Shown: positions 47,779-64,000 of the stretch, one piece after another
Layout of the letters: every line of letters begins with the position of its first letter
Numbering within the stretch: the stretch's first letter is position 1
Source: Desulfobacterales bacterium HSG16
Lineage (GTDB): Bacteria > Desulfobacterota > Desulfobacteria > Desulfobacterales > HSG16
Reading direction: 5' to 3'
NCBI GenBank assembly: GCA_030377965.1
Contig: JAUCGE010000003.1
Span: 1 to 64,000 of the forward strand
Length of the DNA: 64,000 bases
Notes under the pieces: generated by a model
Told to the model about the DNA's origin: nothing
The model's database searches: none
Seen by the model: the letters and a program-made list of their open reading frames with translations, nothing else
Translations under genes and position numbers: made by a program

Positions 47779-48303
47779 TCATTTTAAAAACAATTGCCGA
47801 ATAAAGGACAAAAGCCAATTTTTCAAATCAACCATCGCTCTCTTCTTCAAAAACCAATCCAACCGCTGAAACAAGCCCTGAATCTCTTTAATCCGATCAA
47901 TAATCAAAGTATCATCACTGCAAAAAGAAAGGATACAAACCTCTGGCATGGAATGAGAAGGAAAAATACAGGGGCCTTCCCCGTTTTCAAGAAAAATACA
48001 GTTTGCTGAGAAAAAAAGAACCTCGTTTTCAAGGCATTGTTCAATCATTGGCTGCAACTGGCTTTCCATCGTCAGAATATAAAGAAAGTCTGTACAGCCG
48101 AGAATCGCATTGATATCAATATTCCGGCAGCACATGCCTTTGCATTGTGTCCGGCATTTTTTAAAGACTGGTTCTCCTTCCGTCAGCAGACGCTCTTCGG
48201 CCTTTTGAATTTCTTTGCAGATATTTATCAGGTTTCTTCTGTCTTCAGCAGACAGTTTTTCCAGAATACCCGAAGCATGCTTGTATTTGTGCAGTAATGC
48301 CAT
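47779..48303 (-). CDS. Cys-rich protein, YkgJ-like metal-binding cluster
   Basis: The 174-residue protein has a central block of cysteines: CRTQCKGMCCRNIDINAILG, then FFSANCIFLENGEGPC and VCILSFC. The spacing resembles the zinc- or iron-chelating YkgJ/UPF0153 domain. Helical segments flank it. The function is unknown. It has no partner; its start lies next to a gap before a - strand operon. Confidence 0.55.
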   Translation of the reverse strand: MALLHKYKHASGILEKLSAEDRRNLINICKEIQKAEERLLTEGEPVFKKCRTQCKGMCCRNIDINAILGCTDFLYILTMESQLQPMIEQCLENEVLFFSANCIFLENGEGPCIFPSHSMPEVCILSFCSDDTLIIDRIKEIQGLFQRLDWFLKKRAMVDLKNWLLSFIRQLFLK

Positions 48304-48363
48304 ATGAAACGAGTATAAGCTAAAAATGAAAAATGGACAGTCCCTATGTTAGGGTTTTGTTCC

Positions 48364-49080
48364 TCAGCCTAACCTGCATGACTTTTGCTCTATATGAACA
48401 ATAATGTTTTTAAAATGTTGAAGCCATTCTTTATAGTTCTGGCCGGAAAGAATTCCCCGCACTTCCAGACGGATTAGACCGTCAGAGTCCAGTCCCAGGA
48501 CAAATACAGGAAGCTGTTTCTGCTTTATGATAAAATCTGACATGCCCTCAGATTTAAAAAGCTCAACCGTTTTTTCAAAGCTGTTTCCCAATAAAAGGTA
48601 TTCGTAATCAAAACCTTCATGGTCAATTTTTATTCTCTCCAAATCATTGTATCGGAATAAAAAATACCGAATTTGTCTTGTTGACACAAACAGACGGGAA
48701 AGAACTCTTTTAAGTCTGTCTGAGAAATTTATTGGGAATTTAGATTGAAATATAACATGTTCCAGATTTAAAAATGAACATGGTGTCAAACAAAATTGAA
48801 ATTTTTCATAATTGCTCAATCTTGCAGTAAGTACCGAATGGCTTAAATAAGGTCTGTTCCACCAATTGTATCTGAAACACAGCTCAATTTTTTTATTATT
48901 ATAGTGATAAGTGACAACAGGCATCTTTAAGCAGAAGGTTTCCCTGTATGCTGCGCCTGTTTCTCCCGCAGCTATTTTCCAATCTCTTCTCAAATCCTTT
49001 ATCCAATTTTGTGCTTCTGCTGAAGACAACTCGATTTGTCTGAGCATATGCCTCATTTTTTTCACATCTTCAATTCCCAT
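48364..49080 (-). CDS. Hypothetical protein downstream of the V4R-like gene
   Basis: The 238-residue product has no signal peptide or membrane segment and no family that I recognise. It is rich in aromatic residues (FRYNWWNRPY, TRQIRYFLFRYNDLE) and has a C-terminal GLDSDGLIRLEVRGIL that looks like a beta region. It follows the tandem V4R-like gene by 15 bases on the same strand, so the two are probably co-transcribed. Confidence 0.6.
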   Translation of the reverse strand: MGIEDVKKMRHMLRQIELSSAEAQNWIKDLRRDWKIAAGETGAAYRETFCLKMPVVTYHYNNKKIELCFRYNWWNRPYLSHSVLTARLSNYEKFQFCLTPCSFLNLEHVIFQSKFPINFSDRLKRVLSRLFVSTRQIRYFLFRYNDLERIKIDHEGFDYEYLLLGNSFEKTVELFKSEGMSDFIIKQKQLPVFVLGLDSDGLIRLEVRGILSGQNYKEWLQHFKNIIVHIEQKSCRLG

Positions 49081-49095
49081 TCAAAATCATTCAAT

Positions 49096-50286
49096 TTATT
49101 TTGGAGTAACAACAAATTCCCCATAGTCATCTCCTGTCTCGATTCCTTTTGTCTGATTACACTTAAAAGTACGCAAACTTTTTTGTCCAGCAGGATCATA
49201 TTCTCCGCCATAGGCTAAATCCATAAAACCAGCGCAGACTCCCTGAATCATGTAAGCTGATGGACGAACTGAAGGTAGATCTGCTTCATAATAATCATAT
49301 GCACGTACTATCATTTTTTCACCTGGTATCAATTCAATAATTTCAGACATTGCCCATCCCCAGGCAGTAAACACAGCAAATGCTCCGTGCAGAATATCTT
49401 CTGGAATCTGTTTAATCATGGGCGAAACATATTTATTCCATGCATCACTGTTGATGATGCCATGGCCAGTATGATAACCACATTCATGAGCAGCATTTAT
49501 CAATAAGAATTCAGCTGTTTCAACTAAGTTTTCTGAAACATTGTTTATCAGGTTACGAGCAAATATATTCCAAAAGTCAGCCGGAAGTTGCTGAACATAT
49601 ACACTAAAAGCTTCGATTATACCTTGGTTATTTGGTGAAATACATATTTGGGACATATTTTTTATAACACTGATACGATCAATATTGGTAGGCAAGATTA
49701 GAGAAAGCTCTTTAGGTTGACGGGTTTTTGTATCTGTGCTGAGTATTAATTGAGAATCAGATTCTGGCGATGGATCAGGTATTGCTTCAAAGGCTGATAC
49801 ATTATCTCCGCACACCAGTCCTTTAATTTCTTGAACTTGAAAACTCTGGGGAGGTTTTTTATTCACTAAAGCAGCTACAGCCGCAACAAATCCTGCAGTA
49901 ATATGATTTACAGGTTTTTCGCGACTCCCCCATTTTTTTAACCAGCCTTCATCAATATGAGAATAGAACATTTCTGCTGTGATTACTTCTTTTTTTATCT
50001 CAAAAGAAATCAGGCCCATTCCAACTATTCGCCAATAATCTTCTGCAACAATTCTCCGTTCCTCATCATTATTAATATCTTCCTGAGTGAAATAATCATG
50101 AAGAACCCTGTAAAAAATATTTTCTGAAGTTTCCTTAAGAATCTTTTCCCCTTCAAAATGAGATGCGTCTTCTGCCAGTTGTGTGTATAATGTAGCATAA
50201 TGATGGCAATGAATCACAGAGCAAACATTGTTTAAATAATGACGGTTTCTTATTGAATCAAATTTATGTTTTGAATTGAACTGCAT
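49096..50286 (-). CDS. Protein with two V4R-like domains
   Basis: The 396-residue protein seems to hold two related halves. The first has helices, then HITAGFVAAVAALV and QEIKGLVCGDNVSAFEAIPD (about 128-170). The second has AYDYYEADLPSVRPSAYMIQ, GVCAGFMDLAYGG and GIETGDDYGEFVVTP. Both endings follow the V4R (4-vinyl reductase-like) plan, in which a helix GF..GL precedes a C.A.GD..CEF strand pair. V4R domains bind small hydrophobic ligands. It belongs to the group of genes near the SpoIIE phosphatase. The assignment is by pattern only. Confidence 0.55.
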   Translation of the reverse strand: MQFNSKHKFDSIRNRHYLNNVCSVIHCHHYATLYTQLAEDASHFEGEKILKETSENIFYRVLHDYFTQEDINNDEERRIVAEDYWRIVGMGLISFEIKKEVITAEMFYSHIDEGWLKKWGSREKPVNHITAGFVAAVAALVNKKPPQSFQVQEIKGLVCGDNVSAFEAIPDPSPESDSQLILSTDTKTRQPKELSLILPTNIDRISVIKNMSQICISPNNQGIIEAFSVYVQQLPADFWNIFARNLINNVSENLVETAEFLLINAAHECGYHTGHGIINSDAWNKYVSPMIKQIPEDILHGAFAVFTAWGWAMSEIIELIPGEKMIVRAYDYYEADLPSVRPSAYMIQGVCAGFMDLAYGGEYDPAGQKSLRTFKCNQTKGIETGDDYGEFVVTPK

Positions 50287-50716: not shown

Positions 50717-51892
50717 TTAACCAATTTCAAATCCGACGACCAAAATATCATCCACCTGTTTTTCATCTTTCATCCATGCCTTTAAATTCTGTTCCAGTAT
50801 TTCTTCCTGATTTTTCATGGGTTCTTTATGAATTGTACGAAATAATTGTTTCAATCGTTTTCTTGTAAATTTTTTTGATGAGTCGCCTCCGAACTGATCC
50901 GAATAGCCATCTGACGACATATAACATCTTGTCTTTTGGGAAATATCATATGAATGAGAATGGAGGGTAAAAAGATTTTCTTTCAAACGTCGTCGTCGTC
51001 CTCCGATAGATAACCTGTCTCCTTTTATTTCATGTAGATTATCATCCTGTATAACGATGAGAAAATTATTGGCACCAGCAAACTCCACTCTTTTTTGTTG
51101 ATTATCAATCATGCAGAGAGCAATATCCATACCGTCTTTGTTATGAGTTTTCTCCTGCTTCAATGCTCTGAAAATATTTGAATTCAGCGCGTTCAGCATC
51201 TTGTCCGGCTGATAAAGCACTTTTCCATTGAGTATTTCGTTTAAAAAGCTGATTCCCAGCATTGACATAAATGCGCCCGGAACTCCGTGTCCTGTGCAGT
51301 CTGCCGCAGCGATAAAAATTTTTTCATCTTTTTGGTCAAACCAGTAAAAATCTCCGCTGACAATATCACGAGGTTTAAAAAGGATAAATGATTCAGGAAG
51401 TGCGGATTGAATTCGCTCTTTCTGGGGCAGCAATGCTTCCTGAATTCTTTTGGCATAAGCGATGCTTGCTGTGATATCCTTGTTTTTTTGTTCAATTTCC
51501 AGAAAAGTATCTTTCAACTGCTGGGTCATCTGGTTGAATGCTTTGGAAAAATCCCCCATGAAATCGACTTTCTGGCTGAAATCTCCTTTTGCAATCTCCT
51601 GGGTTTTCCACGTCAGATGCCTTAAATTGGACTGAAGTGATTTAAAAGATTGGACAACCTTCATTTTTCCTTTCGGAGGTTGATAATCAAGTTCACCCCT
51701 GGCAATGGAATACATAAACTCAGAAAATTTGGCGTATTCTGTAATAAACTGGTTAAGATAGCCTGTCATCTGGCTGATTTCATTATCTGGAAAATCATCT
51801 GGCAGGACAATTAATGGGGGAATATCGCCTTTTAAAATCAGGTATATTGCTTCGGTTATTTTATCGATATATTTTTCAGCAACGGTTAGCAT
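50717..51892 (-). CDS. HAMP-SpoIIE family PP2C phosphatase
   Basis: The 391-residue protein has an N-terminal helical part, a HAMP-like region (GDFSQKVDFMGDFSKAFNQM, about 103-122), a coiled coil, and a SpoIIE PP2C domain from about residue 165 (SGDFYWFDQKDEKIFIAAAD, CTGHGVPGAFMSMLG, GMDIALCMID, MSSDGYSDQFGG). The metal-binding Asp residues of PP2C are present. Such proteins dephosphorylate STAS-domain antagonists. No membrane segment is visible. It starts one base after the V4R gene stop, which points to a V4R-sensor and phosphatase pair. Confidence 0.9.
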   Translation of the reverse strand: MLTVAEKYIDKITEAIYLILKGDIPPLIVLPDDFPDNEISQMTGYLNQFITEYAKFSEFMYSIARGELDYQPPKGKMKVVQSFKSLQSNLRHLTWKTQEIAKGDFSQKVDFMGDFSKAFNQMTQQLKDTFLEIEQKNKDITASIAYAKRIQEALLPQKERIQSALPESFILFKPRDIVSGDFYWFDQKDEKIFIAAADCTGHGVPGAFMSMLGISFLNEILNGKVLYQPDKMLNALNSNIFRALKQEKTHNKDGMDIALCMIDNQQKRVEFAGANNFLIVIQDDNLHEIKGDRLSIGGRRRRLKENLFTLHSHSYDISQKTRCYMSSDGYSDQFGGDSSKKFTRKRLKQLFRTIHKEPMKNQEEILEQNLKAWMKDEKQVDDILVVGFEIG

Positions 51893-51893
51893 T

Positions 51894-52418
51894 TTAAGTC
51901 GATTTCACTTCAAATCTGCAAACTCTGTCTCCCGAACACCAGCAATCCACCTCTTGAACTGTAAAATTATGTCCGGTATGAGTAGAAAGGATTCCCTCAA
52001 TAAAGCCTTCATCATACGTACAAATTTCTTCGGAGCAGACAGGAATGCCGGAACAATCCAGATCTTCTGCAATGACCATCGTAAAATTCATTTTTTCCAA
52101 ATCTGCCGTTTCAATCTTCAAGACTCCGATTTTCAAGTCTTTCAATATCTTCTGAACCTCAGCGACGAATTCGTTGAAATTTTCTTTTTTCGGAATAAGG
52201 TGTTTGTAAAGCTCTTCCCCAGCTTTTTTCCCTGCTTCATAGAACATTCTATCCGCTTTTTCAACACCGATCTCTTTGATAAGAACATCCCTCAAGGTAA
52301 ACTGCATCAGCCGATACACTGCAACTTCGGTAGTCGTTCCGAGGTTCGGACGGCCTAATTTGATATCGCCTATCATATTCCAGTCAAATTGAGATTCTTC
52401 TCTTTCTTCTTTAAACAT
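51894..52418 (-). CDS. V4R-domain sensor protein
   Basis: The 174-residue product shows LGTTTEVAVYRLMQFTLRDV and CTYDEGFIEGILSTHTGHNF followed by VDCWCSGDRVCRFEV, a textbook V4R C-terminus with Cys residues placed for ligand or metal. V4R proteins bind hydrophobic small molecules in several signalling systems. It is directly upstream of the SpoIIE phosphatase (one-base gap) and downstream of the MCP. Confidence 0.85.
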   Translation of the reverse strand: MFKEEREESQFDWNMIGDIKLGRPNLGTTTEVAVYRLMQFTLRDVLIKEIGVEKADRMFYEAGKKAGEELYKHLIPKKENFNEFVAEVQKILKDLKIGVLKIETADLEKMNFTMVIAEDLDCSGIPVCSEEICTYDEGFIEGILSTHTGHNFTVQEVDCWCSGDRVCRFEVKST

Positions 52419-52546: not shown

Positions 52547-53668
52547 TTAAAAAAACTCTACATCTTCATCATTGACCTGCACGTTGTCCACTGCAGTTTC
52601 CTCGACAGCATAATCGATTCTTTTGGCTTGATTGTTTTCTATCCTGGATTGCTGTCCATCTCCATATTCGAGTAATTTGTTAGCATTTTCAAACCGGTGC
52701 TTGAATTCTGCCATAGATGAATTGATATTATCTATTTCCTGATTGATCACATCCTGAAACTGGAGAGATATCGTAGCGCCTTCAATGTCTTTTGAAATTA
52801 TCTGATAATTTTTTGTTAATACATCAATGGCTTCCGATATATGACTTATTGATTGCTTAAAATGACCGAATGCTGCTTTCAGCTCTTTTTCGGTATTGTC
52901 AATCTCAGAAGCTCCCACATTACCCTGCTCATCCAGGCTGGCTTTTATTTCTCCCACAATCTGCATGGATTCGGTCACGGTGCTGTTTATGTTCAAAGCT
53001 GTTTGAACAGACCTGTCGGCAAGCGTCCGTACCTCATCTGCCACAACAGAAAAGCCAAGGCCGCTTTCCCCTGCCCTGGCTGCCTCAATAGCAGCGTTCA
53101 AAGCCAGAATTCTGGTTTGAAACGCTATTTTGTCAATCTCTGATACAAATTTGCTGACAGCTTCGATTTTGCTGAAAATTTTTGTGAGATTGTCCAAAAA
53201 AGTTTTGTTGGTTTCCCCGATTGTTCTAAAAAGGCTGCAGGCTTTGTCCACAGCAGATTCATTTTTCAGGATCATACGGGAAATATAGCTGGCTCCGAAT
53301 GCCTCGTTTTCATTGCCATCGCTGCCTGCCATGAAATAATCCACCACAGCATCAGCTTCTTCTGAACCCTCTTTACTCCTTCTTATAATTGACTGTAAAA
53401 GAGATATTATATTGATGGTTTCTTTTTCGGTTGTTTCCTTAACCTGGGCAAGCCTCTGTACGATCTCATTCATGCTGGCATGAGACCCGCTCATCAACTT
53501 CCGCATTTTTCTTTTATAAAAGACAAGGGCAGTTCCGACGCTGAAAATGACAATCAGCAGTCCGATAAGGGCATATGTATAATCAAGGACTGTGAAAAAA
53601 AAAACTGATATTGGAACAACGATTATGATCAGCGGAACTGATAATTCACTATTGGTTTTTACTTTCAT
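52547..53668 (-). CDS. Sensorless membrane MCP with CheZ-like motif
   Basis: The 373-residue protein has two close membrane helices (about 10-48) with almost nothing between them, then a cytoplasmic MCP signalling hairpin with IAFQTRILALNAAIEAARAG and FSVVADEVRTLADRS. So no periplasmic sensor domain is present. After the hairpin, a helix with SLQFQDVINQEIDNINSS contains DxxxQ, the catalytic spacing of CheZ. The C-terminus NDEDVEFF is acidic and ends in FF. It may be a scaffold and CheY phosphatase rather than a receptor. Confidence 0.88.
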   Translation of the reverse strand: MKVKTNSELSVPLIIIVVPISVFFFTVLDYTYALIGLLIVIFSVGTALVFYKRKMRKLMSGSHASMNEIVQRLAQVKETTEKETINIISLLQSIIRRSKEGSEEADAVVDYFMAGSDGNENEAFGASYISRMILKNESAVDKACSLFRTIGETNKTFLDNLTKIFSKIEAVSKFVSEIDKIAFQTRILALNAAIEAARAGESGLGFSVVADEVRTLADRSVQTALNINSTVTESMQIVGEIKASLDEQGNVGASEIDNTEKELKAAFGHFKQSISHISEAIDVLTKNYQIISKDIEGATISLQFQDVINQEIDNINSSMAEFKHRFENANKLLEYGDGQQSRIENNQAKRIDYAVEETAVDNVQVNDEDVEFF

Positions 53669-53716
53669 GATGCTGCTTCTTTCGTTATGTTGCTCGAAAA
53701 ATAATTGAAAAATCTT

Positions 53717-56443
53717 TCAAAATAAGTTGTCCGGGTTTATCACAAGAAAAACTTTTCCATCCCCCATGATGGTAACTCCGCTTATGATATCTATCTTTGC
53801 CAGGGCCATAGGTGGCGGTTTAATGGCGACTTCCATATTTTTTCCAAGGCGATCAATTATCAGACCGAACTTTCCGTGAATAGTTTTTACAATTACTATA
53901 GAACAATTCTCGGTGGATTTACGTTCCAGTTCTTGAAAATCATTGAGACCTGAAATTCGATTCGCCAGAAGGGCTTCAAGGCTTTTAGCGGGCAGAACCT
54001 CACCACGGTGATGAAAAATCCTCTGTTTCCCTGCTTTTTTTAATTTTTCCCAGGGAAGTTTCAAGATTTCCACAATGTTTTCAAGAGGAAAAGCGTATAG
54101 GGTCTTGCCTGCTTCCACAAAAAGAACTGTGTCTATTCCAAAGGTTATGGGAATGGAAAGAGTCGCTTCCATTCCCTGTCCTTCATTGGAAACCAGCCTG
54201 ACCGAACCACCCAGGGAACGTACCGTGGTTTTTACGACATCAAGTCCTACTCCCCTTCCAGAGATATCTGAAACTTCGGAGCTGGTTGATAATCCGGGGG
54301 TAAATACCAGATCATGGAAAGAAGAATCTTCCAAAGCCTCTGTCTCTATGCCTAAGCTTTGAGCTTTTTCATATAGTTTCTGCCTGTCAATCCCTCTGCC
54401 ATCATCTATAACGCTGATGCACAGGTTGGTTCCTTCGTGGGATGCCCTGATAATGACGCTTCCTTTTTCAGGTTTGTTAGCCATTCTTCTTTGCTCAGGC
54501 AGTTCTATTCCATGGTCGCAAGCATTTCTGACCATGTGTACCAGTGGATCGGAAAGCATATCTGCCACTTTCTTGTCGATCTCTATCTCTTCGCCGTCCA
54601 TAAAAAGCTGAATCGATTTTTTCTGTTTTCTGCTGATATCCCGGACAACCCTGTTGAATCTACGGAATATTCTTCTTACGGGAATCATTCTCAAAGACAT
54701 GACCCCATGATGGATATCACTTGTCAGACTGGAAAAAAGATGAAGGTTGTCTTTTAGAGCTTTTATTGTTTTCCGGGCAGGTCCTTCAATGTCCGCCACC
54801 TGGCTTAAAAGATGCTCATAGGTATTTCGCGCGATAAGAAGCTCGCCAATCATATTAGTAAAATGATCCACCTTCCGCTCATCGACTCTCATGGTCCGAG
54901 CTTCTGTTGAAGTATCCTTTTGCAGGGTTTTATCCTGCCTGATCACAATGTTTGAAACAGGCTCCGGTTCTTTTCCCGGTTCCAGGCTGTTTAGAAAAGC
55001 GATGATTCTTTCAAGAGCCTCGGACAATCCCCCATCATTCTTCATCAAGGCATCAATCGCTTTTTCAGCCTGAGAACCAAGAGATGCAAGTCCGACAAAT
55101 CCTGAAGCCCTGGTAATCCCCTTCAAAGCCCGCTTAATGATTTTCGCTTCCCCCCTGTCCAGGGGCATGGTGCTTGAATGTTTTTCCAGAATTTCTTTGT
55201 ATTGAAGTGCCTGCTCGTTAAAAACTTCTCTCAAATCTGCTGAGATGTCCTGTAATATGTCCTGTTTACGACCGAGTTCTTCTTTTACGGAAGAATAATA
55301 TTTAAGGGTCTCAAAAACAGGCGGAAAATCGGGTATCTGTATACCCTGCTCCAGCTTTATTACACATTGACGCAGGAAATCAACGGATTGCAAGATTGCA
55401 TCGACCAGAGCGAATGTACGCTGAATAGCCCCGGAACGAAGACGCTCAAGCAGGGTTTCCAGAGCGTGGGCAAATAGAGTTATGTTCTCAAGGCCCACCA
55501 TATCCGCATCGCCTTTGAGATTATGCACTGCTCTGAAGATTTCATTGAGAGCCTCACGAGACCCGCTCGTTTCATAATCGATAACCGTCTTTTCCATGGA
55601 TTCGAGCAGTTCGACCGCGCCGTCTATAAACTCGTTCAAGGGTTCGGAATTCAGTTTGTCCAGTTTTACATAGACAGGCTCGACAACGATCAGAGAAGGG
55701 TCAAAGGTCAGATCCATGATTTCTTCAGCAGATAATGCAGTTGCTACGTATAAAAACGGGTAGAGATAAAGCCGCAATGGGTTGAATTCATCTATGGGTA
55801 CAACCTCAGAATCGGTTATATCGGCATAGTAAAAAGTGCAGGACTGTTTCAAATTATTTAGAAAAATCATGGGATCATAGCCGTTTTCAAAAAGATCCGA
55901 CGAATATTTCACCTTGACTCTGAACACATAAAGTCCTAGACCTGCAGCTTCTTTGAACCCTTCTTCCACTTCAGGATGGAGGGGAATGTATATGGCTTTC
56001 GATCCCCCGTGCATGAGATGCGTATCAGGCGTGTCAACCTGAGTTTCCGATTTTTTTGTTTTTGAAAAAGATTCGAGCCTTTTTATCAGGTCCCGGTCAA
56101 TATCTGCTTTTCCGCCTGATTCATAGTCTTCGATCATTTTGTTTATATGATCGGTTCCGGCAAGAATCACATCCACGAGATCAGGTTCGAGGGGAATCTT
56201 CCTGTCACGCAAAGCACTTAGAACACTTTCGAGATAATGGGTAAAATCTGAAATATCTTCAAGCTCAAAAGAGCCTGCACTGCCCTTTATGGTATGAATC
56301 CCCCTGAAAACGGAATTTATCAATTCCTGATTATCGGGATCGGCCTCAACCTGAAGAATTTCATTATTAGCCTTCTCAAGGATGTCCTTTGCTTCCTGAT
56401 AGAATTGTCTTCGATATTGTTCGGTAAATTTATCCACAGGCAA
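53717..56443 (-). CDS. cheA: Chemotaxis histidine kinase CheA with multiple Hpt domains
   Basis: The 908-residue kinase has an Hpt domain at 1-100 (RGIHTIKGSAGSF, His50), a P2-like region at about 170-260, a second Hpt at about 265-365 (RAVHNLKGDADMVG, His307), and a third Hpt-like domain at about 400-490 in which Arg438 replaces the phospho-His. The P3 dimerisation region (about 515-600), P4 ATPase (HMVRNACDHG, DDGRGID, GRGVGLDVVK) and a CheW-like P5 domain (768-908) follow. No separate CheW is encoded in the window. Three CheY genes lie just upstream. Confidence 0.95.
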   Translation of the reverse strand: MPVDKFTEQYRRQFYQEAKDILEKANNEILQVEADPDNQELINSVFRGIHTIKGSAGSFELEDISDFTHYLESVLSALRDRKIPLEPDLVDVILAGTDHINKMIEDYESGGKADIDRDLIKRLESFSKTKKSETQVDTPDTHLMHGGSKAIYIPLHPEVEEGFKEAAGLGLYVFRVKVKYSSDLFENGYDPMIFLNNLKQSCTFYYADITDSEVVPIDEFNPLRLYLYPFLYVATALSAEEIMDLTFDPSLIVVEPVYVKLDKLNSEPLNEFIDGAVELLESMEKTVIDYETSGSREALNEIFRAVHNLKGDADMVGLENITLFAHALETLLERLRSGAIQRTFALVDAILQSVDFLRQCVIKLEQGIQIPDFPPVFETLKYYSSVKEELGRKQDILQDISADLREVFNEQALQYKEILEKHSSTMPLDRGEAKIIKRALKGITRASGFVGLASLGSQAEKAIDALMKNDGGLSEALERIIAFLNSLEPGKEPEPVSNIVIRQDKTLQKDTSTEARTMRVDERKVDHFTNMIGELLIARNTYEHLLSQVADIEGPARKTIKALKDNLHLFSSLTSDIHHGVMSLRMIPVRRIFRRFNRVVRDISRKQKKSIQLFMDGEEIEIDKKVADMLSDPLVHMVRNACDHGIELPEQRRMANKPEKGSVIIRASHEGTNLCISVIDDGRGIDRQKLYEKAQSLGIETEALEDSSFHDLVFTPGLSTSSEVSDISGRGVGLDVVKTTVRSLGGSVRLVSNEGQGMEATLSIPITFGIDTVLFVEAGKTLYAFPLENIVEILKLPWEKLKKAGKQRIFHHRGEVLPAKSLEALLANRISGLNDFQELERKSTENCSIVIVKTIHGKFGLIIDRLGKNMEVAIKPPPMALAKIDIISGVTIMGDGKVFLVINPDNLF

Positions 56444-56445
56444 CT

Positions 56446-56811
56446 TTATCCGATTATTTTTTGAACGACATTTAAAATAGTTTTAGGCTTGAAAGGTTTG
56501 TTGATCCATGCCTTTGCGCCTGATGCCTGACCCTGCCGCTTGAGTTCTGGCTCATTTTCCTTGGTCAGTATGACAACCGGAATGAACTTATATTTGGAAT
56601 TTGTTTTCAGGGTCTTTATCAGCTCTATTCCGCCCATATTGGGCATGTTTATATCAGTGATCACCATATTAACTTTTTGTTCAGAAATTTTATCAAGAGC
56701 ATTTTTCCCATCACAAGCCTCTATGACCTTATATCCTGAATTTTCCAGGGTCATTGATGCCAGGCCTCGAATTGACACAGCATCATCAACGATCATTACA
56801 GTTTTTGACAT
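56446..56811 (-). CDS. cheY: CheY-like response regulator 1
   Basis: This single receiver domain (121 aa from ATG 56811, which has GGAG six bases upstream; an earlier ATG touches that site) shows VMIVDDAVSIRG, the phospho-Asp in ITDINMPNMGG, the switch Thr in VVILTKE and the Lys in INKPFKP. Trp replaces the usual aromatic Tyr before it. It is three bases upstream of cheA and closely resembles the next receiver, so the two arose by tandem duplication. Confidence 0.92.
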   Translation of the reverse strand: MSKTVMIVDDAVSIRGLASMTLENSGYKVIEACDGKNALDKISEQKVNMVITDINMPNMGGIELIKTLKTNSKYKFIPVVILTKENEPELKRQGQASGAKAWINKPFKPKTILNVVQKIIG

Positions 56812-56905
56812 TTTCATCTCCGTTTTTTCAATTATTGATACTTACATATCGGTCATACACAAAACAGGCGCAGGAGTGGGGAGTAATAATTTCAGCACTC
56901 TTGTA

Positions 56906-57274
56906 TCAACCGATTATTTTTTGCACAACATTTACGATTGTCTCAGGTTTAAAAGGTTTTACAACCCATGCTTTCGCGCCTGCGGCCTGCCCTTCCCGTT
57001 TCATGGCAGGATCGCTTTCCTTTGTAAGCACAACTATGGGAATGAATTTGTGTTTAGGACTCGCTTTCAAAGCTTTTATAAATTCCATGCCTCCCATATT
57101 GGGCATGTACAGATCGACAAATATTAAATGCAGCGATTTCAGCGTTGATACTTTGTTCAGGGCATCTTTGCCGTCACAGGCTTCTGCAACTTTATACCCA
57201 GAACCTTCCAGAGTCATTTTCAGCAATCCTCTGACTGACAGTGCATCATCCACGATCAGAATTGTTTTTTGCAT
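56906..57274 (-). CDS. cheY: CheY-like response regulator 2
   Basis: This receiver (122 aa) shows ILIVDDALSVRG, phospho-Asp in FVDLYMPNMGG, IVVLTKE and VVKPFKP. It shares its ending (VNVVQKIIG) and much of its length with response regulator 1, 95 bases downstream. Confidence 0.92.
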   Translation of the reverse strand: MQKTILIVDDALSVRGLLKMTLEGSGYKVAEACDGKDALNKVSTLKSLHLIFVDLYMPNMGGMEFIKALKASPKHKFIPIVVLTKESDPAMKREGQAAGAKAWVVKPFKPETIVNVVQKIIG

Positions 57275-57341
57275 AGTTGTTACCTTTGTTGGAAACTTGA
57301 AAAAAGATGCTTGTGACCTGTCTTTTGCAAATAATAATTTT

Positions 57342-57650
57342 TCAGGTTTTCAGTTTCAATTTTCGAGTTTCAAATTTAACTCCGTATAATTCGCAAAGCT
57401 TCTGGGCCTGGGGGGAAATTTCGGAAACGTGAAAAGAAATTTTTTCCCTGTCCGCGAAAGCTCTCAAAGATAAAAGCATCTGCAGATAAGCAGTGTCCAT
57501 ATCTTCCACTCCCCGTGCCAGAATATCGATTTGTTCAAGATCATTCGAAACAAGAGAACTGATTTTTTCAGTATCTGCTTCTGCACATACTATAGTACAC
57601 TCAGAAGATAGCTCAATGCTCAATATTTTTTCTTTTGTATCAGCTTTCAT
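57342..57650 (-). CDS. STAS-domain protein
   Basis: The 102-residue product has the STAS fold, with VEDMDTAYLQMLLSLRAFAD at the site where SpoIIAA/RsbV-type antagonists carry the phosphorylated Ser or Thr (Thr in MDTAY). It overlaps the CheY gene upstream by 11 bases. It could be the substrate of the RsbT-like kinases and the PP2C phosphatases of the same locus, and so join the stressosome to the chemosensory part; this is inference. Confidence 0.8.
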   Translation of the reverse strand: MKADTKEKILSIELSSECTIVCAEADTEKISSLVSNDLEQIDILARGVEDMDTAYLQMLLSLRAFADREKISFHVSEISPQAQKLCELYGVKFETRKLKLKT

Positions 57651-58011
57651 CCTGACCTCCGGTGAGAAGCTTGATATGCAGTATAAGTTTATCCGGTTTG
57701 ACAGGCTTTACAAGATATAGATTAGCACCTGCCTTGTATCCTTTTTCTTTGTGTATGTCATCTTCCTGTGTGGTCAGAATTATTACAGGCGCATTTTCGT
57801 CCAGTTCTCTATACCGCTCGATAAACGTAAGCCCGTCCATGTTGGGCATGTTGATGTCACATAGGATAAGGCTGTAAGATGTGATCAGAGCCTTTTCCAG
57901 GGCTTCCACACCGTCCGATGCCCCGTCAGCCATAAACCCTGACATCTTTAAAATATTCGTATGAAAGCTCCTTACAACAGGAGAATCGTCAACCACCAGA
58001 ATTTTTTTCAT
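57640..58011 (-). CDS. cheY: CheY-like response regulator 3
   Basis: The 123-residue receiver shows ILVVDDSPVVRS, phospho-Asp in LCDINMPNMDG, VIILTTQ and LVKPVKP. It is less like receivers 1 and 2 than they are like each other. It overlaps the STAS gene, indicating coupled translation. Confidence 0.92.
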   Translation of the reverse strand: MKKILVVDDSPVVRSFHTNILKMSGFMADGASDGVEALEKALITSYSLILCDINMPNMDGLTFIERYRELDENAPVIILTTQEDDIHKEKGYKAGANLYLVKPVKPDKLILHIKLLTGGQDES

Positions 58012-58048
58012 TTTTCAATCAGCTCCTTTTGAAACTTCAAAATACAGA

Positions 58049-59014
58049 CTAAAAAAAGATAACTTCTTCATCATCATCTTGCTCTGAATCAGCTGCTGTC
58101 AATGCTGCCTGTTTTTCTTCCTCTCCAATTTCAACCAGATCATCTTTTACGACACCTGCAATGTCCAGGCCATTCAGGTCATCCATGACCGATGACAGAA
58201 TGTTGATAGTATATTCGGATAATTCATTGCATATATCTTCGCATTGGAGATTTACGACTATTGCGTTTATTTCATCACCTACCGAAGAGGATTCTCCCAG
58301 AGTGCTGTCCATAAGGGAATTCAATTGAACAAAAGAATCGACCAGTGATAAAATGAGATCCTGTAAAAGCAGCATTGTGGACTGCATAAAACTGGATTCA
58401 ATATTGATCGCATCTTTCAAAGACGCAACAACAGAATTCCCGTCAGACTCTGCTGATTCACCCGGTTGTCCCGTCATCATCGCCATTATTTTGTCGAGCC
58501 TGGCCAGATCTTCCTGCTTTTGTGCAGTAATAAGTGATAACTGCTCCATTACATCTTTAATCAGTTGTTCATATCTTTTTCGGGTTTCTTCCGCTGAAGC
58601 CTTACCGGGTTTTTTCCCCATTATATTCTTGACCAGACTCAACGAAATTTTTATGCCCATAAGATCCAGGATTTCCCTGGTTTTGCCTGTGGTCTTATGC
58701 AATCGTTCAATCAGGTTCGAAAACTGCCGTATCGAATCTTCCGTTGCCCCCCCAATTTTGTCGCTCCCGGAAATATGCAGGTTCTTTATCCGCTCGACCT
58801 TAGCAGCTACATCCCGATATATTTTCAAAATTCTATCTTGATCTTCTGACAGGTCAACAGATTTGTCAGGAATTACATGAGAATCTTCCTGATGCCCGGA
58901 TTTATGATCAGCGCCTGCCTGCATCCTTCTCCCTGCCACATAGAACAAGACCAGCCCCAGCAAGAAAAACAGGATATTAAATGTGGTCATTATTATGGTC
59001 ATTATATTCGTCAC
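58049..59014 (-). CDS. Membrane-anchored helical protein, CheZ-like
   Basis: The 321-residue product has one N-terminal membrane helix (about 8-27, FNILFFLLGLVLFYVAG), then is almost all helical and cytoplasmic. Near residues 255-275 it reads VVNLQCEDICNELSEYTINI, which aligns with the helix holding DxxxQ in CheZ and with LQFQDVINQ of the MCP here, but with Glu in the Gln position. The C-terminus is DDDEEVIFF, like the tail of the MCP. I infer a CheY-binding or phosphatase role; no named family is certain. Confidence 0.6.
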   Translation of the reverse strand: MTNIMTIIMTTFNILFFLLGLVLFYVAGRRMQAGADHKSGHQEDSHVIPDKSVDLSEDQDRILKIYRDVAAKVERIKNLHISGSDKIGGATEDSIRQFSNLIERLHKTTGKTREILDLMGIKISLSLVKNIMGKKPGKASAEETRKRYEQLIKDVMEQLSLITAQKQEDLARLDKIMAMMTGQPGESAESDGNSVVASLKDAINIESSFMQSTMLLLQDLILSLVDSFVQLNSLMDSTLGESSSVGDEINAIVVNLQCEDICNELSEYTINILSSVMDDLNGLDIAGVVKDDLVEIGEEEKQAALTAADSEQDDDEEVIFF

Positions 59015-59031
59015 TTCCTTCTATTCCTGCT

Positions 59032-60021
59032 TCACTTCACAACAAGAACAGTTGCATCGTCATAATTTTTGGCATATCCAGTAAAAATATAGTTACTTAT
59101 CTCCTGAGGTGACTTTCTCAGCAGACCTTGCTCAATCTCAAATTTATTAGATATCCCATCAGAAAACATCACAATGCATGAGTTTTTTGAATAAGGATAT
59201 ACATTTATACGTGCGTTTTCCATGATAAGACCCATAGTTCCGTTGGTACAGACTGGTTTGATGGGAGAAGGGGTTCCATAGACCCTGGTTTCCACATTAC
59301 CGATGCTGACATGCTGAAAATTATTTGTTTTGAAATCAATCATACCTATTGACATGGCGGCCCCCCTTGATCCTTTCAAACCCTCATGACACCGTTTAAT
59401 AATGGATAGAAGCGAGTCCTGAAAATTGTTTTCAAGAATGTTGAGAGCATGCTTGGCAACCTGATGAGCGTGAAAACCATGCCCAAGTGCATCAATCACG
59501 CTGAAAATGACATAGGACGGAAGATGTTTGAAAAAATAGTCGTCACCTGACACTGTTTCTCCCAGCTTGGGTTTGGAAAGCACCGAACAGTGTTTTTTCG
59601 ATTTGTAATCTGTTTTGATCCATTTTTTTGAACGGATAACAGTTCCTCTGCCCTTACCTGTCTTGAATTCAAGCTCATCCATGAGCCTTTTCACACCAGA
59701 AAGACCAATTCCAAGGGTGTTTGTGCTTGATATACCGTCTTTTATCATAGCCTCGACATTGTCCATTCCAGCCCCCTGATCTCGTGCTGTTATCTCAATG
59801 CCTCTGACATACCCATCTTTCACAGACTGAAAAAGCATGCTTCCTCTGCCGCCCGCATGTTTGATAATATTGGTTCCCAGTTCTGAAATGACAATCTCAA
59901 TCTCAGCTACACCAATTTCACCAAAACCTGTGGCAAAAGCAATTTTTTTGCCAAGCAGCCTGGCTTTGATGACATCTGTTTCATTGTTAATAGCAATTTT
60001 GCTCTTATTTGTCACAACCAT
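59032..60021 (-). CDS. RsbT-like kinase fused to PP2C phosphatase
   Basis: The 329-residue protein joins two enzymes. Residues 1-135 are a GHKL ATPase of the RsbT type (EIVISELGTNIIKHAGGRGS, ARDQGAGMDN, GIGLSGVKRLMDE). Residues about 145-329 are a SpoIIE/RsbX-type PP2C (GDDYFFKHLPSYVIFSVIDA with LGHGFHAHQVAKHAL, and MFSDGISNKF, NYDDATVLVV). In stressosomes RsbT phosphorylates RsbR and RsbS and RsbX reverses this. It overlaps the rsbT gene by 10 bases. Confidence 0.9.
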   Translation of the reverse strand: MVVTNKSKIAINNETDVIKARLLGKKIAFATGFGEIGVAEIEIVISELGTNIIKHAGGRGSMLFQSVKDGYVRGIEITARDQGAGMDNVEAMIKDGISSTNTLGIGLSGVKRLMDELEFKTGKGRGTVIRSKKWIKTDYKSKKHCSVLSKPKLGETVSGDDYFFKHLPSYVIFSVIDALGHGFHAHQVAKHALNILENNFQDSLLSIIKRCHEGLKGSRGAAMSIGMIDFKTNNFQHVSIGNVETRVYGTPSPIKPVCTNGTMGLIMENARINVYPYSKNSCIVMFSDGISNKFEIEQGLLRKSPQEISNYIFTGYAKNYDDATVLVVK

Positions 60022-60431
60022 TCGATTATGGATATACTTGTCCCTTTCCCTGGAACAGACTCGATTTTAAACTCATTGCAAAGTTTTTTTGCGCCTCCCA
60101 GCCCCAGGCCCAGGGAGTTTGCCGTGCTGAATCCCTCCTGCATGGCTTCGTCAATATTCTGTATCCCCGGGCCTTTGTCCTCAAATATACATTTCAATCC
60201 CCTGGTCTTTCTTTTTCCATCAACCTGAAACAAAGTCATTTTTCCCTGGCCTGCATGGGTAACCATATTTCTGGCAAGCTCCGATACAGCTGTGACAATT
60301 CGTGTCTGAGCAAGTAAGGAAAAACACATTTCTCCCATTAAAAATTTGACTTTCTGCCGTGCAAGAATGATATCTTCGAAATTTGAGATCATTATTTCAA
60401 AAGATTCGCTATTCTGTCTTGAATTTGGCAT
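60012..60431 (-). CDS. rsbT: RsbT-like serine/threonine protein kinase
   Basis: The 139-residue GHKL protein starts at the ATG after AAGGGAGGTCTC. The N-box reads VSELARNMVTHAGQGKM, then EDKGPGIQNIDEAMQEG and GLGLGGAKKLCNEF. RsbT phosphorylates RsbS and RsbR in the stressosome and is released to activate a partner phosphatase. It overlaps rsbS by 23 bases, the standard R-S-T gene order. Confidence 0.92.
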   Translation of the reverse strand: MPNSRQNSESFEIMISNFEDIILARQKVKFLMGEMCFSLLAQTRIVTAVSELARNMVTHAGQGKMTLFQVDGKRKTRGLKCIFEDKGPGIQNIDEAMQEGFSTANSLGLGLGGAKKLCNEFKIESVPGKGTSISIIEWL

Positions 60432-60810
60432 GAGACCTCCCTTGCAGAAAACGGTTCGAAACCATAGTCTCCAAAAGGGCCAGACCATCTTCAATGTTGA
60501 GTGCTGTGTGAAGATCCTGCATTTTCAACCCGAGTTGTATCAATGTTAGGACAACCTCTTTTTTCATGCCCACAAGAACCGTTTCGGTTCCCATGAGCCT
60601 GACCATTTTAGCGGTTTCCACTAAAAGCCTTCCAAGGAAGCTGTCAACAATATTTACGGCAGAAACATCAATCAACAGACCTTTTACGCCTGTACGCTCT
60701 ATCCTTCTTAATATTTCTGTCTGAAGTTCCCTGGCCGCATTGTCATGAAGCTCTGTTTGAATCGGAACAATGATATTATTACCAATTTTCAGAATCGTAA
60801 CGTCTCCCAT
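60409..60810 (-). CDS. rsbS: RsbS-like STAS antagonist
   Basis: The 133-residue STAS protein has VNIVDSFLGRLLVETAKMVR with Ser in the RsbS phosphorylation position, and the segment VLVGMKKEVVLTLIQLGLK, as in RsbS. It binds RsbT and, with RsbR, makes the icosahedral core. It lies between rsbR (18 bases upstream) and rsbT. Confidence 0.92.
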   Translation of the reverse strand: MGDVTILKIGNNIIVPIQTELHDNAARELQTEILRRIERTGVKGLLIDVSAVNIVDSFLGRLLVETAKMVRLMGTETVLVGMKKEVVLTLIQLGLKMQDLHTALNIEDGLALLETMVSNRFLQGRSHAKFKTE

Positions 60811-60828
60811 ATCTCATTTCCCCCTGAT

Positions 60829-61665
60829 TCAGTGCATCTGTTGATCAGTCAGTTCAAGGGCGAGCTGAAGGCCGTCTGCCATCGTTGTTCTGGTGACAAC
60901 TCCGCCAAGATCGACACCAAGTTGTACCAGAGTCTGAGCAATCCTTGCCCTGACACCTGTGATTATACATTCTGCTCCCATGAGTTGCGCTGCTGAAGCT
61001 GCTGTTATCAGGTGTCTTGCCACCAGAGTGTCTACAACTGGAATGCCTGAAATATCGAGAATAGCCACTTTAGATTGACTGTTTTCCAGAGCTTCAAGAA
61101 GTATTTCCATCATCATCTGAGTTCGTTCACTGTCAAGCATTCCGATCAGAGGAATCATTATAATTCTGTCCCAAACTTTGACAACAGGAACTGAAACCTC
61201 CTTGAATGCCTGCTGCTGCTCATTAATAATTTCTTCCCTTGACTCCAGATATGTTTCAAAAGTATTGATTCCAAGCAGATCAATTAACTGGTTAACTGCC
61301 ATAATGGCATCGGCAAGTTTTTTTTCATCAAATTCATCCTGGAGAACCGGAAATATCGAATTTTTCATGGAAAACACGAAAATAGCGGTTTCGGAAGGTG
61401 TGATGTTCTGAAGAGTCATTTTACGGCTCATGGCTGCAAGTATCTTCAATACCTTCTGATAGGAGTCATTAGCCTGATCGTCCTGGTCCGGCATGACATT
61501 AATGAAATGCCCCAGAATATCCAGAGTCATTTGTTTTGTTTCATCAATACCCACGGCTTCCACAAGAGATCTGGCGCGAAGGATGAGCTGCTTGTTCCAC
61601 AACTCAAAAATTTTCTCCCGGTGTTTTGATAAAAGTAACGATACTTCTTTGTTCAATGCTTTCAT
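60829..61665 (-). CDS. rsbR: RsbR-like stressosome scaffold/sensor
   Basis: The 278-residue protein has a helical N-terminal domain (KALNKEVSLLLSKHREKIFE) of the RsbRD type rather than a globin, and a C-terminal STAS domain (about 160-270) with SGIPVVDTLVARHLITAASA carrying the DT phospho-site and IITGVRARIAQTLVQLGVDL, then TRTTMADGL. It would form the stressosome core with RsbS and present the sensory turret. What it senses is not evident. Confidence 0.92.
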   Translation of the reverse strand: MKALNKEVSLLLSKHREKIFELWNKQLILRARSLVEAVGIDETKQMTLDILGHFINVMPDQDDQANDSYQKVLKILAAMSRKMTLQNITPSETAIFVFSMKNSIFPVLQDEFDEKKLADAIMAVNQLIDLLGINTFETYLESREEIINEQQQAFKEVSVPVVKVWDRIIMIPLIGMLDSERTQMMMEILLEALENSQSKVAILDISGIPVVDTLVARHLITAASAAQLMGAECIITGVRARIAQTLVQLGVDLGGVVTRTTMADGLQLALELTDQQMH

Positions 61666-61776
61666 TTACACGATCCTCCCCTGTATCCAGATATTTGCAT
61701 TTTTGTTATTAAAAGCTTCATTGGTTTTGAAGCTGTATTTGATTAATAGGCTTATCGTTAAGTCTATCCAATTATT

Positions 61777-62610
61777 TTATTTGTAATAGACAATATAGCC
61801 GCCTGCTCTTTTGAGCTTGAAAGCTGTGCTGATTCTTCCCGGAGACTCGCTGGAACCCAGGAAGACATAGCCGCCCTCGTTGAGGGCAACATAAAATTGA
61901 TCCACCAGGCGCTTTCTTGAAATATCATCAAAATATATTAACAGATTCCTGCAGAAAATAAAATCAAATCCTCTTTTTTTTCTTATTTCTTTTTTTTCAG
62001 AAAGATTTACATGTTCAAACTGCACCATTTTCTTGACTTTTTTTTGCAGAACATATGATTCGCTATCTTTTTTTATAAAATAGCGGTCAAGGTATTCCTG
62101 GGGTACATCTCTCAAGCTCCTTTTCCCATAAACCGCTTGTTTTGCCTTACTGAGAACCGTCAAGTCTATGTCGTTTGCAATAATCTCGATCTTCCAGGTG
62201 GAAAAATAATTAAGCATTTCAAGCAGGATGATGGCTATGGTATAAGGCTCTTCGCCTGTTGAACATCCAGCAGACCAGATTCGGATTGTATTATCTTTTA
62301 CAGCGTTTTTTTTCTTTTCGACTTCGGACAGGCAATGTTCGGCAAATGCCTGCAATTGAGGGAAATCTCGAAAAAAATAGGTTTCGTTTATGGTCAGAAG
62401 ATCAGTCAGCTTCTGGAATTCCTGATTGACAGGATCTGCAAATCTGAGCATCCGGATGTATTCCGCAACCGTCTCTACGCCCAGTTCATCTATTCTTTTC
62501 CCGATTCGCTTTGAAATAAAATAGAGCTTTCTGGACTCAAAACGTATCCCTGTCTTTTTGTAGATAAAATCGCTCAGAGTATCAAATTCTTCGGCTGTAA
62601 TATTTGCCAC
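61777..62610 (-). CDS. cheR: Chemotaxis protein methyltransferase CheR
   Basis: The 277-residue enzyme uses SAM to methylate glutamates of MCPs. The N-terminal helical domain is followed by LLTINETYFFRDFPQLQAF, the SAM motif IWSAGCSTGEEPYTIA and FIFCRNLLIYFD. No pentapeptide-tethered TPR is present. It lies 111 bases upstream of rsbR; that gap contains the only clear break in the run from cheB to cheA where a new promoter might lie. Confidence 0.96.
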   Translation of the reverse strand: MANITAEEFDTLSDFIYKKTGIRFESRKLYFISKRIGKRIDELGVETVAEYIRMLRFADPVNQEFQKLTDLLTINETYFFRDFPQLQAFAEHCLSEVEKKKNAVKDNTIRIWSAGCSTGEEPYTIAIILLEMLNYFSTWKIEIIANDIDLTVLSKAKQAVYGKRSLRDVPQEYLDRYFIKKDSESYVLQKKVKKMVQFEHVNLSEKKEIRKKRGFDFIFCRNLLIYFDDISRKRLVDQFYVALNEGGYVFLGSSESPGRISTAFKLKRAGGYIVYYK

Positions 62611-62666
62611 GCAATCTCCCTTGGAATTGAAAACTGAAAATCGTTTGAATTTTCAGTTGACAATCA

Positions 62667-63533
62667 TCAGTCCATAAGTTCTTCACATAATAAACGCAGT
62701 TCGTCATTTTCCGTTGCCTGCATAATTTTTCCCATTATTTCAAGCACACAATCTTCCTTTATGAATTCTTCATAAATCCTGTCTGCCTGCTCAATTGCGT
62801 AAACAATGTCTTCTGCATAGATATTGATATCAGCTATCGTATTGACAATGCTACACAATGATTCCGCATCGCCGGTCTTTGATGAAAGGCGTATCATATG
62901 GGGAAGATAGAGAGGGTCCATCAGAGAAAAATCCCCGTATGGGGCCAGAATTGAAACAAAGTCTTCGGCATCTGTTTTCCGGCATTCGATCTGACAGAGC
63001 ATCTCCAGTATGGCTGTTCGCAGCATGGCCTCTGTTTCGTTGGAAAAAATTTCAAGCATTATTTCAACACTTTCCCTGTCTTCCAGACGGCCAAGATATT
63101 CTACTGCCGTTATTTTCACATTTACTGACGGATCACGCAGACCTTTCCGAATAGCTGGTAATGCACCAGGAACCCCGGTTGCAAAGAGAGCGTCAAGGAT
63201 AAGCTTTCTCACTTCTCCATCAGCATGATCCATGTGCGACTCCAGAAAAAAGATAGCCTCATTACCTTCAGATCCGAATATATCAATGGTGGAATTTCTT
63301 AAATATGGGTCAGAGGAGCTGAACAAGTCAAAAATTTTTTCATAATTCCCGGAGCATGACAGATTGTTGAGAGAAAATACTATAGCATCTCTTACCGCCT
63401 GAGACCCTTCGATCTGAAGCCGGTCTATGAGGTGTATCGACATATTGGGATTTTTTGTTTCTGCAATATCCTGGGCTGCGTAAATTCTCTCCGTTTCATC
63501 GGGATCATTCAACGCCTTTGCAAATTCATCCAT
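62667..63533 (-). CDS. HEAT-repeat protein between cheB and cheR
   Basis: The 288-residue protein is built of HEAT repeats (for example DPDETERIYAAQDIAETKNP, SQAVRDAIVFSLNNLS, LRNSTIDIFGSEGNEAI, LRDPSVNVKITAVEYLGRLE) across at least residues 8-200. Such proteins act as scaffolds. HEAT proteins are found in some chemosensory operons of Deltaproteobacteria; the partner here is unknown. It has no signal peptide. Confidence 0.85.
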   Translation of the reverse strand: MDEFAKALNDPDETERIYAAQDIAETKNPNMSIHLIDRLQIEGSQAVRDAIVFSLNNLSCSGNYEKIFDLFSSSDPYLRNSTIDIFGSEGNEAIFFLESHMDHADGEVRKLILDALFATGVPGALPAIRKGLRDPSVNVKITAVEYLGRLEDRESVEIMLEIFSNETEAMLRTAILEMLCQIECRKTDAEDFVSILAPYGDFSLMDPLYLPHMIRLSSKTGDAESLCSIVNTIADINIYAEDIVYAIEQADRIYEEFIKEDCVLEIMGKIMQATENDELRLLCEELMD

Positions 63534-63562
63534 TATATATAGCCTCCGATTATCAACTCAGC

Positions 63563-64000
63563 CTATCCCACAGCTTTTATAATTTTGTCTGCAATTTCCC
63601 AGCTAGGCACAACAATCTCGGCTCCGCCTCTCTGGATAGCCTCATTGGGCATTCCGAATACAATTGCACTTTCTTCACTTTCCGCAATGGTAATGCCCCC
63701 CGCATCTCTGATTTTAACCATGCCGTCCGCTCCGTCTGCTCCCATGCCTGTCATCAATACTCCAATTGTGTCCTGTCCGAAAACGTCAGCAACCGAATTC
63801 ATCATAATATCTACGGAAGGCATGAAAGTATGATGGGGCCTTCTTGGTGCCCTGATTACAATCTTTCCATTCAGTTTCCGGAACAGTATCATATGATGCC
63901 CTCCCTTTGCCAGATATATTTTTCCAGGTTCCACAATCATTCCAAGATCGGTTTCCATGCATTGCATGGAGCTGTGTGCATCAATTCTCTGTGCATAGGT
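63563..64000 (-). CDS. cheB: Chemotaxis methylesterase CheB, C-terminal part
   Basis: The frame is open to the window edge, so the start and the receiver domain, if any, lie outside. The 145 residues seen are the C-terminal part of the CheB catalytic domain: GMIVEPGKIYLAKGGHHMIL, HHTFMPSVDIMMNSVADVFG, LMTGMGADGADGMVKI with the catalytic Asp, and AESEESAIVFGMPNEAI. CheB removes methyl groups placed by CheR, encoded two genes downstream. Confidence 0.93.
   Translation of the reverse strand, partial: TYAQRIDAHSSMQCMETDLGMIVEPGKIYLAKGGHHMILFRKLNGKIVIRAPRRPHHTFMPSVDIMMNSVADVFGQDTIGVLMTGMGADGADGMVKIRDAGGITIAESEESAIVFGMPNEAIQRGGAEIVVPSWEIADKIIKAVG

Follow-up and report, generated by a model that had tools for sequence, protein, structure and literature searches.

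A composite sensory operon in Desulfobacterales bacterium HSG16 that may wire a stressosome into a chemosensory system

Gene content and extent of the operon

The window analysed here is the whole stretch of 64,000 nucleotides at positions 1-64,000 of contig JAUCGE010000003.1 from Desulfobacterales bacterium HSG16, and window and contig coordinates are identical. An earlier note on this DNA had listed a run of genes on one strand from cheB through a SpoIIE phosphatase, and this order was borne out on the minus strand, reading down from 64000. The run begins with cheB (contig 63563-64672, of which the 3' part, 63563..64000, lies in the window; the full protein has PF01339 and PF00072), a gene for a HEAT-repeat protein that is conserved between cheB and cheR (62667..63533; PF13646, 1e-17, and a family alignment) and the methyltransferase gene cheR (61777..62610; PF01739, 2.5e-58). 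The stressosome genes follow, namely rsbR (60829..61665), rsbS (60409..60810), rsbT (60012..60431, overlapping rsbS, with a start inferred from homologues) and a fused rsbT'-PP2C gene (59032..60021). Next are a gene for a CheZ-like membrane-anchored coiled coil (58049..59014), cheY1 (57640..58011; PF00072, 4.2e-29), a gene for a STAS-only protein that overlaps cheY1 (57342..57650), cheY2 (56906..57274) and cheY3 (56446..56817), both with PF00072, then cheA (53717..56443) and an MCP gene (52547..53668), which is the last conserved gene of the operon. They are followed by the genes for a V4R protein (51894..52418; PF02830) and its partner, a HAMP-like/SpoIIE phosphatase (50717..51892; PF07228). 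From cheB to the MCP the spacing between neighbours is -23 to 111 nt, in agreement with the short gaps and overlaps described before, and the proposed domains all reach the Pfam cut-offs, the sole exception being the CheZ-like protein, for which Pfam gives no significant match.

The operon extends on the contig beyond the window edge at 64000, with the full cheB, a gene for a 673 aa protein with three CheW domains (contig 64945-66966), one for a cytoplasmic MCP that has two signalling domains (67011-68957), and an Hsp70-like gene (69031-70545). Therefore the statement that there is no CheW is true inside the window alone and wrong for the operon as a whole, which has this CheW-domain protein upstream and a CheW-like domain at the end of CheA. 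All parts of a CheA chemosensory system (CheA, CheW, MCP, CheY and CheB/CheR) are present. On the other hand, rsbV, rsbW and sigB, the genes of a sigma-B module, were not found in the conserved operon, as the earlier note had said of sigma and anti-sigma genes.

Further upstream are TPR and ParA-like genes, which adjoin the operon directly in Desulfobacter latus and in the genomes G116 and G175. In HSG16 a divergent second che cluster intervenes between the TPR and Hsp70 genes (L009:11050-17319, plus strand), encoding CheA, CheY, two CheX/CheC-like proteins and a PAS-GAF-SpoIIE-HATPase protein; the CheA-CheY-CheX part of this cluster has relatives that lie within the same operon in Desulfonema magnum, G143 and G148. 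The upstream pairing of a ParA-like gene with a cytoplasmic MCP resembles that of the Rhodobacter PpfA/TlpT cytoplasmic receptor cluster, but the latter is not known to include stressosome genes and a positioning role for the HSG16-type operon would be an analogy only. Promoter and terminator scans (43 versus 36 and 17 versus 12.5) were both near chance and uninformative about transcript ends. At the far end of the window, five tRNA genes are clustered at 131-2271.

The genes rsbR, rsbS and rsbT (together RST) are adjacent, and each product has the right domains for a stressosome. RsbR carries an RsbRD_N sensor domain (PF14361, 1.7e-13) and a STAS domain (PF01740), and the alignment shows conservation of both threonines that occupy the known phospho-site positions (VVDT, AQT). 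RsbS, a single STAS domain, keeps the DSF serine and matches a solved stressosome RsbS (6jhk, 2.7e-23). The assignment of these phospho-sites presumes that the known biology of B. subtilis applies. The N and G boxes for ATP binding are intact in RsbT (PF02518), for which a comparison with the PDB gave no match. In the RsbT'-RsbX fusion (PF13581, PF07228) the HATPase and PP2C motifs are both intact in the alignment, and in the PDB comparison its PP2C half was closest to 3zt9 and to RsbX 3w40. An assignment as RsbU was thus rejected in favour of RsbX; judged by its sequence, the fusion looks like an RsbX-type reset phosphatase instead of the phosphatase acting on STAS that had been proposed.

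In the alignment and the HMM scan, the usual phospho-site of the STAS-only protein (PF13466/PF01740) is occupied by an invariant D-T pair, at the position which we take to be where anti-sigma antagonists carry the phosphorylated residue. The protein was present in every RST-linked che operon in which the interval from cheY1 to the following cheY was covered. A small-ORF scan found it, again with the D-T pair, in the RST-less che operons of G568 and G725 as well, so the idea that this protein occurs only with RST was rejected and its role cannot depend on RST. No match to it was found among plasmids. CheA has two Hpt domains besides its dimerisation, ATPase and CheW-like domains (Pfam). That the MCP (PF00015) is without a sensor domain was confirmed; it has hydrophobic N-terminal segments, an LQFQDVINQ motif and a DEDVEFF tail, and the CheZ-like protein has an LQCED-xxx-E motif and a C-terminal EEVIFF tail. 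Both proteins share the pattern LQ-x-[QE]D-xxx-[QE] together with a C-terminal acidic-V-x-FF tail, and a tail survey found the latter again on MCP-like proteins encoded at the loci of the KSB1 and Leptospiraceae bacteria. In our reading this tail is a docking peptide, with CheY as its possible partner on the analogy of CheZ. The CheZ profile PF04344 matched neither the CheZ-like protein nor the sensorless MCP, the resemblance of the former to CheZ consisting only of a DxxxQ/E-like motif and the acidic-hydrophobic tail, and its AlphaFold2 model has a mean pLDDT of 43.

The V4R and SpoIIE genes had been counted as the end of the operon, with V4R as a possible input, and both fall outside the range 52547-64000 given for it. 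V4R is far from the operon in the complete genomes of D. magnum and G116, for which reason the two genes were rejected as parts of the operon. They are a separate cassette (50717-52418) that is not conserved with the operon, and the same holds for V4R as its input. Among 276 genomes of the order, 27 have V4R, a protein that resembles the MsvR regulator; the cassette is elsewhere unlinked to che-RST and also adjoins another RST locus (G434, L124). Downstream of SpoIIE, three further minus-strand ORFs at 47779-50286 (396, 238 and 174 aa) have no Pfam match.

Distribution and inheritance of the linkage

The sample comprised about 390 genomes from the order and 395 from the phylum. Linkage of RST with che genes was found in at least ten other Desulfobacterales genomes, in one KSB1 bacterium and in one Leptospiraceae bacterium. 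The gene order of the window, which the earlier note had proposed to look for in relatives, is present in D. magnum (complete genome), Desulfatirhabdium, the Desulfobacteraceae MAG bin_101 and G148, and in G032 for as much as its contig holds. In a second arrangement RST follows cheA (D. latus, the KSB1 bacterium, G238 and G331), and in the Leptospiraceae MAG the two sets are near each other on opposite strands. RST or its neighbours are on contigs separate from some che genes in G175 and G362; the former is rearranged, yet it is still counted as linked. Some genes are at contig ends in G075, G205, G143, G362 and G032, and the linkage there is therefore incomplete. Because the association recurs in many genomes and in several arrangements, it is more than chance and not accidental.

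Four che operons of the same type are without RST (G643, G575, G568 and G725), and no credible RsbT was found elsewhere in these genomes. HSG16 itself has a second RsbR-S-T-X locus (L106, G000:C371), which is without che genes and adjoins REC-containing proteins, and most RST loci in the phylum sample are without che genes too. The earlier note had held that unlinked rsb and che parts in related genomes would speak against the association. This is seen in part, in the four RST-less operons and the che-less locus of HSG16, on account of which RST is an optional add-on to the che operon and not an accident.

In the tree of RsbR, RsbS and RsbT combined, eleven che-linked sets form one clade with support of 100/100, and G116 and G663, the che operon of the latter being very divergent, form a second che-linked lineage. 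A quick tree of the che proteins places the window-type and D. latus-type operons as sister groups, with G116 and G075 among them. Of 8 splits, 4 are common to the RST tree and the che tree, where 0.25 would be expected and 2 of 5000 shuffles reach as many; the Mantel r of 0.89 was reached by none of 5000 permutations. The two trees are congruent; since congruence is also expected from shared vertical descent, this shows co-inheritance, not interaction. The che operon of G116 is nested among RST-linked che operons, yet its RST is from the other lineage, and this second lineage lies beside the same che operon in both G116 and G075. The simplest reading is replacement, because no close relative of the first RsbT was found in the complete genome of G116, and the second lineage probably replaced the first at this operon.

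Fusions join the two gene sets in a few genomes. The che locus of G032 encodes an MCP carrying RsbRD_N (L017:10281-11840; 36.5 bits versus a cut-off of 24.3; hhalign probability 94.9%), a paralogue of the operon MCP with 43% identity in which RsbRD_N replaces the membrane segments. In G075 an RsbX-type PP2C is fused to CheC, and G116 has a homologue that is 55% identical over its length (L220:11800-12987 and L162:7335-8528); from its domains this protein is possibly a dual phosphatase. Each fusion is known from one or two genomes, two of the three assemblies being drafts. Genes for an AccI-like restriction endonuclease and a methylase are inserted between the two MCP genes at L017:7300-9738.

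Routes of coupling and their rivals

The core claim of the earlier note, that Ser/Thr partner switching is joined here with a CheA phosphorelay, is well supported by the genomics. Bearing on it are linkage across three phyla and several gene arrangements, the single RST clade, the agreement between the RST and che trees, the second RST lineage and the two fusions. As distant relatives keep both gene sets together, the two machines probably work as one, and these sequence comparisons make functional coupling of the stressosome and the chemosensory system quite likely. Taken as a whole, the data seem best explained if the operon is a conserved composite unit for sensing, with its stressosome wired to the chemosensory system, a reading to which we give a probability of roughly 0.55.

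In this composite operon, the stressosome would consist of an RsbR/RsbS scaffold, the kinase RsbT and the reset enzyme RsbT'-RsbX. The chemosensory side would comprise a cytoplasmic and a membrane MCP, a multi-CheW coupler, the two-Hpt CheA, three CheYs and CheB/CheR, along with the CheS-like STAS protein and the CheZ-like phosphatase candidates. Under stress RsbT would phosphorylate RsbR and RsbS and then leave the scaffold, and RsbT'-X would reverse this phosphorylation. Once freed, RsbT may alter the phosphorylation state of the STAS protein, acting on it directly or by way of an RsbU-type SpoIIE phosphatase. STAS on CheA may in turn bias how phosphoryl groups are shared out between the three CheYs, the part that CheS plays in Sinorhizobium, so that the stressosome would set either the gain of the CheA relay or the branch it takes. 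Encoded beside cheY1 and placed like CheS, the STAS protein is the best candidate for the junction, and it is possible that RsbT and two phosphatases set it to act on CheA, as the earlier note had suggested. The route through STAS and CheA is itself tentative. A single integrated machine, with RsbR-type sensors on MCPs, an RsbT/PP2C-switched STAS steering CheA, and RsbX-CheC resetting both Ser/Thr-P and CheY-P, is a somewhat more doubtful proposition.

The main rival holds that the two systems converge at the output, both controlling a common partner-switching module (STAS with SpoIIE-HATPase) without acting on each other: RsbT would switch an RsbU-type phosphatase and CheA would phosphorylate a REC-SpoIIE-HATPase regulator, for which Shewanella CrsR/CrsA is a precedent (PMC9855816). 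Such genes do adjoin the operon in several relatives. An RsbU_N-PAS-SpoIIE-HATPase gene is located between the MCP and rsbR in G116 and G075, accompanied in G075 by a STAS gene; a REC-SpoIIE-HATPase gene comes directly after the MCP in G148; and in G032 a STAS gene and a REC-PAS-SpoIIE-HATPase gene adjoin that of the RsbRD_N-MCP. However, no module of this kind adjoins the operon in D. magnum, and the SpoIIE nearest to the operon in the window has neither REC nor RsbU_N and belongs to the V4R cassette. We consider convergence a real but minority possibility.

Shared input, in which parallel sensors with the same class of sensory domain are merely co-regulated with no downstream cross-talk, would account for the presence of RsbRD_N both in RsbR and in an MCP of G032. 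It appears improbable, since an RsbRD_N-MCP was found in one genome only and the RsbX-CheC fusion of G116 and G075 points to coupled resetting beyond shared sensing. Least probable is neutral or selfish clustering, whereby RST entered a che operon fortuitously and was then carried along as the operon spread. The related che operons without RST and a likely transfer across phyla would fit such a history, but the linkage outlasts rearrangement, a second RST lineage established it anew or took the place of the first, and there are two fusions, which leaves this reading very little weight.

Parts of the composite operon resemble known systems. Gram-negative (Vibrio vulnificus, V. brasiliensis) and Moorella stressosomes also combine RsbR/RsbS/RsbT with an RsbX-type phosphatase and no sigma-B, and their output module varies by lineage. 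Unlike them, RST is here surrounded by a complete CheA/CheB/CheR/CheW/MCP system, and its RsbX is joined in one protein with a second RsbT-like domain. Gene neighbourhoods have led others to suggest that stressosomes and taxis are connected (PMC4976288, PMC4260858), one example being a link to aerotaxis in V. brasiliensis, based on a neighbouring CheY-like gene (PMC4976288). Chemosensory control of partner switching is known in Shewanella, where the operon of Che1-CrsR-CrsA likewise carries partner-switching proteins (PMC9855816); that operon is without RsbR/RsbS/RsbT and partner switching is its output, whereas the HSG16 operon includes the stressosome core. CheS of Sinorhizobium and Agrobacterium is a small protein with STAS as its sole domain and its gene in a che operon, and the HSG16 protein is like it by position alone; CheS binds CheA and affects the choice of CheY (PMC12654446), and it has no reported link to RST. 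In the literature searched, mostly open-access papers, no description of a complete che operon that contains an RST module was found.

Output and significance

FliG was not found in any of the seven genomes tested that have the window's gene order or belong to the sister lineage, namely HSG16 (80% complete), the complete D. magnum and G116 and four drafts in which the gene order is that of the window. D. latus, the KSB1 bacterium, G175, G238 and the Leptospiraceae bacterium do have FliG. A flagellar output is improbable because of this absence, and the relay of the window lineage probably does not end at a flagellum. PilT-family matches were obtained in all 11 genomes tested, and CheAs with multiple Hpt domains are mostly of the ACF/Tfp class (PMC10782961). 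Type IV pilus motility, gliding motility or another cell function is a more likely output than the flagellar motor.

To our knowledge, little has been established about what stressosomes control in bacteria other than those with sigma-B, and stressosomes and chemoreceptor arrays are customarily treated as separate machines. The conserved operon and the fusions offer specific candidate contacts between them (RsbT-STAS-CheA, RsbRD_N-MCP and RsbX-CheC), which bear on how signals from a Ser/Thr switch could adjust a His-Asp relay.
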